Assembly: GCF_001482285.1 (NCBI RefSeq)
Contig: NZ_LOEP01000018.1
Location: 62,001-126,000 of the forward strand
From: Haloferax sp. Q22
Lineage (GTDB): Archaea > Halobacteriota > Halobacteria > Halobacteriales > Haloferacaceae
Length of the DNA: 64,000 bases
Reading direction: 5' to 3'
The translations under genes and the position numbers were made by a program. Below, piece after piece: positions 42,326 through 44,094 of the stretch (its first letter is position 1; every line of letters starts with the position of its first letter). The notes under the pieces were generated by a model. It ran no database searches, was not told where the DNA came from, and saw only the letters and a list, made by a program, of their open reading frames with translations.

Positions 42326-42793
42326 ATGCGACTGAGAGAAGCGACGGCGGCGGACCTTCCCCGACTCGTCGAACTGTGGTACGACCTCGCGACGGAGATG
42401 GAGCGGTACGACGACCTCAACGCGCTGGTGTACGAGTCGCGGGCGGAGGTGCCGGAAGACCCGTTTCAGGCTCACCTCGACAGCGACGACGTGACCGAGT
42501 ATCTCGTCGAGGTCGACGGCGACACTGTCGGGTTCGCGACGACGCGACGCGGCGAGCATCCCTCGCGGGAGTACTCGAACTACACGCGGCTGGTGAACCT
42601 GTTCATCGAAGACGGCCACCGAGGGCGAGGATACGGCTCGGCCGTCGTCGACGAGGTGCGACGGCGGGCCCGCGAGTCGGGTTGCGACCATCTCAAGGTG
42701 TCCTGCGAGTGGGACAACCGCGGCGCGCGGTCGTTCTACGAGGACGCCGGTTTCGAGGAAAAGCAGGTGGAGTTCGCGCAGAAACTCGACTGA
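42326..42793 (+). CDS. GNAT-family N-acetyltransferase
   Basis: A 155-residue GNAT protein. The acetyl-CoA-binding motif LFIEDGHRGRGYGSAVVDEV (about 92-110, R/Q-x-x-G-x-G/A) is clear, and NRGARSFYEDAGFEEKQVEFAQKLD is the usual C-terminus. Substrate unknown. It is 66 bases after the metal transporter; function probably unrelated. Confidence 0.85.
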   Translation: MRLREATAADLPRLVELWYDLATEMERYDDLNALVYESRAEVPEDPFQAHLDSDDVTEYLVEVDGDTVGFATTRRGEHPSREYSNYTRLVNLFIEDGHRGRGYGSAVVDEVRRRARESGCDHLKVSCEWDNRGARSFYEDAGFEEKQVEFAQKLD

Positions 42794-42903
42794 TGGGCAG
42801 TCTCGGTCGGTGAGCTGGCACCCGACTCGGGCCAGTCCAGTCCGCGTTGGGACCTCGGCGATAGAGCTATCAGCCGGCGACGCATCGAGGTGGCCACGAG
42901 GTG

Positions 42904-43564
42904 ATGTCTATTAACCACCACAATCGGAATCTTCGTCCGTGGACTCGTTCTCGGCGTCTCGATAGCCGCGCCGGTCGGTCCAATCGGTGTACTGTGCATC
43001 CAGCGAACGCTTTCTAAGGGCCGCCGTTCGGGCTTCGTCAGCGGACTCGGAGCGGCGTCTGCGGACGCGGTCTACGGGGCCATCGCGGGGTTCGGTCTCG
43101 CTGCGCTCTCGTCGGTCCTGCTCGGACACCGCAACGCAATCGCTCTCGCGGGCGGCGCAATCCTCCTGTACATCGGCGTCCAGTCGATTCGGGGCGACCC
43201 GGCGTCCGTCGAGTCGGCACCGACGACCGAGCGGTCGGCCGTCGCACCGCTCGACTCGAACGCCCGGATCCTCGCGGCCGACTTCGGGTCGACGTTCCTC
43301 CTGACGCTGACGAACCCGGTGACGATACTGGCGTTCGTCGGCATCTTCGCCGGCCTGGGCGTCGGCGTCTCGGGCGACTACCTCGCGGCGGCGGTCCTCG
43401 TCGCGGGCGTCTTCGCCGGGTCGGCGCTCTGGTGGTTCGTCCTGAGCGCCGCCGTCGACCGCGTCCGAGAGCGCGTCACTCCGGCCGTGCTCCGCCGGGT
43501 GAACCAACTCGCCGGCGTCGTCATCGTCGGATTCGGCGTCGCCGCGCTCTGGAGCGGCCTGTAG
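42904..43564 (+). pseudogene. LysE/RhtB-type amino-acid exporter with apparent 1-base frameshift at the start
   Basis: Codons from 42905 to the stop at 43562-43564 (219 codons) encode a six-helix LysE-family protein: TIGIFVRGLVLGVSIAAPVG, GFVSGLGAASADAVYGAIAG, LTLTNPVTILAFVGIFAGLG and SALWWFVLSAAVDRV. This frame is closed upstream by TGA at 42902-42904 and has no ATG, GTG or TTG before GTG 43319. An ATG at 42904, exactly where the family should start, is off by one base (ATG-T-CTA-TTA). Losing one base would restore the gene. It is either a pseudogene, a sequence error, or an unconventional start. Confidence 0.75.
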
Positions 43565-43668
43565 CGCGCCGCCCCGGCACTCCCGACACCGGCCGAGTCC
43601 CGTCGAACCTCTCCGAATCCATCGTCGTCGTCACCTCCATATCGCTGGCGGTCATATGTGTGCGTGAG

Positions 43669-44094
43669 ATGCCCACGCACAAAGCAGAGACGACGTGGAC
43701 CGGTGGCAAAGACGGCAGCGGCGAGTTCTCGACCGAGAGCGGGACCGTCGAGGGGACGTTCACGTTCCCGACACGATTCGAGGACGAACCCGGGTCGAAC
43801 CCCGAGGAACTCATCGGCGCGGCTCACTCCGGCTGTTTCTCGATGCAGTTGACCGCGTTCCTCGAAGGCGAGGGCTACACGCCGACAAGCCTTCACACCG
43901 CGGCCGACGTGCACCTCGACCCGGCGGACGGCGGCGGCTTCGAAATCTCGCGCATCGACCTGACGCTCGACGCCGACGTGCCCGACATCGACGAGGAGAC
44001 GTTCGCCGAACTCGCCCAGCGCGCCAAGGAGAACTGCCCGGTGTCGAAGGCGCTCGCCGGGCCGGAAATCACGCTGACCGCGACGCTCGCCTGA
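43669..44094 (+). CDS. OsmC/Ohr-family peroxide reductase
   Basis: A 141-residue protein with both active cysteines of the family: C56 in AAHSGCFSMQ and C123 in ENCPVSKAL, and a typical alpha/beta shape. It opens PTHKAETTWTGGKDGSGEFSTESGTVEG, close to bacterial OsmC. Reduces organic hydroperoxides in the cytosol using dihydrolipoyl or small-thiol partners. ATG 43669 is chosen because the protein before it in the same frame looks uncoded. Confidence 0.92.
   Translation: MPTHKAETTWTGGKDGSGEFSTESGTVEGTFTFPTRFEDEPGSNPEELIGAAHSGCFSMQLTAFLEGEGYTPTSLHTAADVHLDPADGGGFEISRIDLTLDADVPDIDEETFAELAQRAKENCPVSKALAGPEITLTATLA

Follow-up and report, generated by a model that had tools for sequence, protein, structure and literature searches.

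The lysE gene of Haloferax sp. Q22 lies on contig C10 of an assembly of 3.98 Mb and 56 contigs, within the stretch of 64,000 nucleotides analysed here, hereafter the window, to whose numbering all coordinates refer unless another locus is named. The open frame of lysE spans 42905-43561, comprises 219 codons and ends at the TAG at 43562-43564. On the 5' side it is shut by the TGA at 42902-42904, and its earliest in-frame ATG, GTG or TTG is the GTG at 43319, 138 codons in, so that no canonical start precedes codon 139—as a preliminary description of the locus had recognized in noting a 219-codon frame without a start. The same description correctly placed the ATG at 42904-42906 one base out of frame with lysE; it belongs to the next frame, which ends at the TAA at 43015-43017 after 37 codons. 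Read from 42905, the product matches the Pfam family LysE (PF01810) with an E-value of 1.9e-26 and 93.2 bits over profile positions 2-191 of 193, and with the gathering cut-off at 25.6 it is a LysE/RhtB-type translocator. No named subtype (lysine, threonine or leucine exporter) exceeds its NCBIfam cut-off: the best score is that of TIGR00949 with 80.4 bits versus 183.95 required, and the lysine exporter model reaches 31.5 versus 213.65 required. Solved structures yielded no sequence match to the product up to an E-value of 0.1, and its structure model, with a helix predicted at residues 2-34, has a mean pLDDT of 53 and is thus too poor for use. The features of the locus are listed below; index 0 denotes the T of the TGA at 42902-42904, and the fractions refer to the 31 start-less orthologs described further on.

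42859-42871, forward strand: BRE/TATA-like promoter element, from base counts at index -43 to -31; weak in Haloferax, clearer in other genera.
42898-42904, forward strand: GAGGTGA, Shine-Dalgarno-like motif whose TGA closes the lysE frame; AGGTGA in 31/31, preceding G in 29/31.
42904-43017, forward strand: ORF1, overlapping frame of 37 codons from the ATG at 42904 (38 from the GTG at 42901) to the TAA at 43015-43017; stop within 36-39 codons in 29/31.
42910-42915, forward strand: ATTAAC hexamer around the proposed start; ATTAAC in 30/31, A after the TTA in 31/31.
42911-42913, forward strand: TTA, candidate non-canonical start codon, 6 nt past AGGTGA; TTA in 30/31, GTT in one; an ATG takes its place in three more remote orthologs.
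42911-43564, forward strand: putative coding sequence of the LysE-type exporter, TTA (codon 1) to TAG, 217 codons plus stop; Pfam LysE, constrained as coding from codon 2 on, with the start region shared by 31 orthologs.

The distance from the frame opening to the first start codon sets lysE apart within its own genome. Among 266 coding-like frames (stop-to-stop, at least 180 codons) in 444 kb of the genome, lysE ranks second for this distance; the frame ranked above it is skewed in base composition and may be antisense. In the same set, lysE is the only AGGTGA-led frame that has no start in its first 50 codons. The start-less frame is more than chance.

Orthologs of lysE were searched in overlapping sets of 15 genomes of the genus, 170 of the family, 392 of the order and 391 of the class, in four further families of 125, 28, 146 and 9 genomes, and in one outgroup family of 18. 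The cut-offs ranged from 1e-30 to 1e-50, and in one search matches above the cut-off were set aside as paralogs. All sets together gave orthologs in 36 different haloarchaeal genomes, with a patchy distribution (e.g., 28 of the 392 genomes in the order). The start is shared by 31 of these 36 genomes: AGGTGA, any five bases and ATTAAC (one variant, L123), of which the LysE frame reads TTA AC. In all 31, the LysE frame contains the TGA, and none has a canonical start codon where one would be expected. They comprise 10 Haloferax genomes—among them H. marisrubri, H. sulfurifontis, H. massiliensis, H. gibbonsii, H. denitrificans, H. prahovense and H. profundi—8 from other genera of the family and 13 from four other families, and span 16 genera and 5 families as counted by handle. 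For the alignment of the start region, 32 loci were taken and reduced to 31 by dropping L119, which is identical to L035 over -45 to +60 plus the start of the coding sequence; the sequences are related, and the counts given here are not independent events.

This comparison with relatives, which the preliminary description had suggested as a check, bears on its own interpretation, namely a very recent one-base change, a read error or a rescued start. Because the relatives keep the same start-less beginning, a read error or recent indel is rejected. A recent frameshift, pseudogene or sequencing error would account for the absent canonical start and for the frame being closed by TGA, but the arrangement is common to 31 genomes with reading frames intact, at least 206 codons being open in every one, and such an event is extremely unlikely. 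As judged by the alignment, the start-less beginning is old and conserved, not recent. The remaining option of that description, a rescued or unusual start, is the one favoured by the evidence: the same start-less reading recurs in 31 of the 36 genomes and suggests initiation at an unusual codon. Relatives with that reading are one half of what the description had named as its refutation, the other half being a start mapped at an unusual codon.

AGGTGA is invariant in the 31 orthologs and the next four bases are variable. The ATG that overlaps the motif is found in 25 of them and is replaced by ACG in 4 and ACC in 2; the ATG at 42904 is hence not needed, and the phrase "frameshifted at its start codon", by which the locus had been introduced, presumes a true start at a codon that six of the 31 lack. 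In the lysE frame, the codon at +3 past the motif is GTA in 20, CTA in 9, GCA in 1 and GTC in 1, and the codon at +6 is TTA in all except L123, which has GTT. Elsewhere in these genes, TTA accounts for 9 of 883 leucine codons (39 of 913 in total, minus the 30 at codon 1). ATG codons followed by at least 100 open codons stand at +3 to +8 past AGGTGA in 1, 2, 1, 3, 3 and 1 cases within the 444 kb—small numbers, 11 cases with a peak at +6/+7—with none at +9 to +19 and two at +20; GTG and TTG have no clear spacing peak in the same 444 kb. A pattern for the 3' tail of 16S rRNA has no match in this assembly. For Haloferax volcanii, a spacing of 5.55 ± 1.15 nt is given for 31 extended Shine-Dalgarno motifs, and the same report, from tests on sod, describes no need for such a motif in 5'-UTRs (PMC3986360). 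Two features of a conserved non-canonical start, the lack of a canonical in-frame start across species and a Shine-Dalgarno-like motif at ordinary spacing before one conserved codon, are present at lysE.

The substitution pattern of the alignment indicates where the protein-coding frame begins. Over the first 36 alignment columns of the lysE frame, changes at codon positions 1, 2 and 3 average 1.44, 0.83 and 4.72, and one-codon in-frame length differences occur directly after TTA AC; by this pattern, the lysE frame is coding from codon 2 on and under purifying selection. Codons 2-36 include the stretch AAPVGP, invariant in 20 sequences. Third positions in the overlap with ORF1 change 4.72 times per codon versus 5.2-6.5 elsewhere, and synonymous conservation thus seems only slightly higher overall. 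In 25 codon columns, A or T is the most frequent third base, and the four least changed of these, TTA (1 change), ACA (1), CGA (2) and TCT (2), all lie in the first 36 codons; nine of the 25 columns fall there, and the chance of this placement is ~1 in 100, ignoring relatedness. Codon-wise binomial tests flag sites beyond the overlap too, e.g., a GTG in column 206.

The five ortholog genomes outside the 31 are two of Haloferax (L005 and L013) and three of family f5 (L129, L130 and L177). The f5 orthologs are more distant and carry an ATG at the position of TTA. From this ATG to the first A of AAPVGP the distance is 18 codons, the same as from the TTA or GTT in 18 of the 31; it is one codon longer in 12 and one shorter in 1. 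The ATG is the presumed start of these three genes; L130 has another in-frame GTG two codons upstream of it, and L177 has an open frame upstream. The LysE of L005 (G014:C1, near 155520) is 98% identical to that of the window, its upstream DNA is unlike, and an in-frame ATG is found two codons before a CTA that stands in place of TTA; on this comparison, L005 represents a natural switch to an ordinary start. L013 (G008, LysE near 737192) is a start-less Haloferax frame in which AGGTGA is kept and the hexamer lost. Its overlapping frame consists of GTG ACG TAA only, and its closest candidate starts are GTC or CTG. With GTC at the TTA offset in L013 and GTT in L123, UUA is not universal at this position.

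The predicted promoter of lysE is marked by a BRE that starts at index -43, and indices -7/-6 are pyrimidine/purine in 27 and 28 of the 31 orthologs. In the Haloferax clade to which the window belongs, the TATA-like box is weak. In this genome, the distance from a BRE-TATA expression to an ATG peaks at 37 (6 of 89 motifs), whereas a plain CGAAA motif gives several equal peaks (28, 37, 43), which makes the transcript start a rough estimate. It is predicted near index -6, window position 42896, and would leave a leader of 15 nt to the TTA and 5 nt to the GTG. The layout agrees with the BRE at -34/-33, TATA at -29 to -25 and pyrimidine at -1 reported in PMC3986360. No structured RNA or riboswitch was matched in Rfam up to an E-value of 1 in 42700-43700. 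The lysE promoter also contains an inverted repeat, GATAG-AG-CTATC at 42860-42871, identical in 6 of the 7 closest start-less Haloferax copies, that could be a regulator site. Further upstream lies a GNAT acetyltransferase gene (42326-42793). In L006 this gene seems to be missing there, and lysE directly follows DNA that matches the end of the nickel-transporter-like gene.

On these grounds, lysE is read as an intact gene that is translated without a canonical start, initiation at UUA being placed by the Shine-Dalgarno-like motif; we assign this reading a probability of about 55%. It is favoured because 31 of 36 genomes share the architecture, because AGGTGA stays invariant while the bases of the ATG behind it vary, and because TTA is kept at +6 in 30 of 31; the f5 orthologs with an ATG at this position and L005, in which an in-frame ATG accompanies CTA, lend it further support. 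From a transcript with a leader of ~15 nt, AGGTGA would pair with the 3' end of 16S rRNA and thereby put the initiator tRNA on the UUA at 42911-42913, and the protein would begin with (Met)-Thr-Thr-Thr-Ile. UUA pairs poorly with the initiator anticodon, and NCBI table 4 lists TTA as a start. A UUA start would probably be weak and either keep the exporter low or place it under the control of initiation factors, and a fraction of ribosomes may initiate in the overlapping frame (at GUG, AUG or AUU) and terminate ~38 codons on. Phrase searches of the open-licence literature, judged by titles and the beginnings of abstracts, gave no prokaryotic UUA or TTA start codon, and literature searches on LysE in Haloferax and on haloarchaeal frameshifting gave no paper that by its title concerns this gene.

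ORF1 is the overlapping frame in question. From the GTG at index -1 or from the ATG, it comprises 37-39 codons, and its stop is found at the same place in 29 of 31 orthologs (TAA in 26, TGA in 2, TAG in 1), having been lost in L010 and L113. The LysE residue at this site varies (K, N, E, D or R) and the ORF1 stop is kept nonetheless; the ORF1 peptide is highly variable, with only the stop and a few bases kept. The stop is absent at that place from L013, L129, L130, L177 and a Salinigranum copy described below. L005 keeps it with the nearest start in that frame 32 codons upstream, which implies that an ORF1 stop can persist a while unstarted. Since the stop is kept in 29 of 31, some ribosomes may read this frame, and the pattern suggests, on balance, that they do so where its start is present. 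One 5' end might then feed two selected overlapping frames, a leader ORF of 37-39 codons (from GUG, AUG or AUU) and the UUA-started exporter, the choice between them setting, and perhaps regulating, exporter output. This combination is tentative and stands well below even odds; if true, it would constitute a frame-choice switch at the start site and make UUA a natural start codon that several families of Halobacteria conserve.

The main rival of the UUA start is a programmed +1 frameshift out of the overlapping frame. Ribosomes would start at the GUG at 42901 or the AUG at 42904 on an almost leaderless mRNA and slip by +1 near AUU-A, no later than the fourth codon; ribosomes that stay in frame would end at the conserved stop 38 codons on. 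As expected of such a site, the zero frame indeed has a start of its own and an early stop conserved in 29 of 31, and the GTG lies within AGGTGA in all 31. In addition, the predicted transcript start would leave ~5 nt before GUG and so fall into the leaderless class of PMC4983044, which covers leaders of 0-5 nt and counts 118 such transcripts starting at GUG. However, inspection of the aligned codons revealed none that re-pairs well (CGU to GUA, AUU to UUA, UCU to CUA), the preceding codon varies between species, the site is changed in L123 and L013, the ATG is kept in no more than 25 of 31, and the one alignment of 31 gave no conserved RNA fold (-10.2 versus -13.5 ± 3.8 for column-shuffled controls). 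A stimulatory structure is not needed at every +1 frameshift site. The motif just upstream also recalls the +1 site of bacterial prfB (RF2), which lysE resembles in its upstream Shine-Dalgarno-like motif and its zero-frame stop; unlike prfB, lysE has no re-pairing slip codon and no stop at the slip site, and the slip would occur far earlier in the gene. On the whole, a frameshift is rather unlikely. Examples of archaeal frameshifting named in PMC8211752 are fucA, some haloviruses and a methanogen chelatase, none of these being a haloarchaeal cellular gene.

Two further alternatives keep initiation in the lysE frame. It may occur at a codon other than UUA, such as the GUA or CUA at +3, or at no fixed codon; the codons at +3, mostly GTA or CTA, and the absence of TTA from L123 and L013 are compatible with this, but conservation at +3 falls short of that of TTA, and only 1 of the 11 ATG cases in this genome has this spacing, at the margin of the range, which leaves this option improbable. 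Alternatively, the hexamer could be a DNA or RNA control element and lysE could start at a downstream codon and encode a shorter protein. A plasmid record of Haladaptatus pallidirubidus, in which the protein of 194 residues begins at an internal GTG 13 codons past the TTA, and a TTG at codon 8 or 9 in L010-L012 would fit a downstream start. Yet 20 of the 31 orthologs have no ATG, GTG or TTG in their first 40 codons, codons 2-36, AAPVGP included, are constrained as coding, and beginning at codon 14 would truncate the hydrophobic first helix as placed by the poor structure model; a downstream start is accordingly very unlikely. Two other candidates were rejected: translation through the TGA from a start farther upstream in the same frame, since a GTG at index -6 occurs in only 12 of 31, and an internal promoter (TATTAA as TATA box) with a downstream leaderless start, since a downstream in-frame start is not conserved.

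The closest parallel is found in Streptomyces sigR, where the GTG inside a AGGAGGTG motif was first taken as the start and the proven start is a GTC 3' of the motif, GTC being used in 32 and GTT in 2 of 34 species (PMC5472188). In both genes, a strong Shine-Dalgarno-like motif contains a GTG that misleads as to the start, a non-canonical codon follows closely on its 3' side, and the arrangement recurs across species, a minority having GTT. In sigR, however, GTC is in frame with the GTG, the host is a bacterium with IF3, and the start was proven by Edman degradation and stop mutations, whereas the candidate in lysE is a UUA out of frame with GTG and ATG, in archaea. The Staphylococcus aureus starts of infC (AUA), ccpN (AUA) and cvfC1 (AUU) likewise combine weak codons with an extended Shine-Dalgarno motif; the three reporters gave ~10% of AUG output in poor medium, with up to 30% for ccpN in rich medium (PMC13009471). 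Unlike UUA, these codons differ from AUG at the third base only, and they were found by Ribo-Ret and tested with reporters (PMC13009471). At ambiguous AUGUG and GUGUG starts of Escherichia coli, overlapping frames can both be initiated beside one Shine-Dalgarno motif, and an A right after the start codon is enriched, with toeprints reported to give no sign that this A positions the ribosome (PMC9841429). lysE shares the overlapping frames at one motif and the A after the proposed start; in E. coli, however, both starts are canonical (PMC9841429). Most likely, lysE adds a new codon, and an archaeal case, to a known kind of non-canonical start.

Gene prediction presupposes ATG, GTG or TTG, a rule broken by lysE, which is conserved in 16 genera; one annotated start-less record, that of Haladaptatus pallidirubidus, places the start 13 codons inside the gene. 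A UUA start would widen the range of natural start codons and make lysE a clean test of haloarchaeal Shine-Dalgarno pairing, the use of which in H. volcanii leaders has been denied. Should the gene be frameshifted instead, the event would be unusually early and would affect a cellular gene of haloarchaea.

The leader of lysE and copies of the gene were also sought elsewhere. The pattern AGGTGANNNNNATTAAC matched in 23 of 293 genomes; of the 23 places listed, 16 are LysE orthologs by position. Seven places have no LysE after the motif (L137, L138, L139, L141, L142, L150 and L154); as the reversed control pattern gave 18 matches in 14 genomes, these look like chance. Among viral sequences, 18 stretches matched a pattern and none encoded a relative. 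A plasmid copy of Salinigranum marinum (L176; NZ_CP100463.1, 2501-3087) is preceded by an in-frame GTG, spreads over two frames and seems disrupted further on; the PLSDB table, itself incomplete, lists no gene for it, and the copy is possibly decaying. In L116 (1507-2490), the usual stop is absent and the frame runs to 328 codons, with a C-terminal tail that is absent from the other 30.
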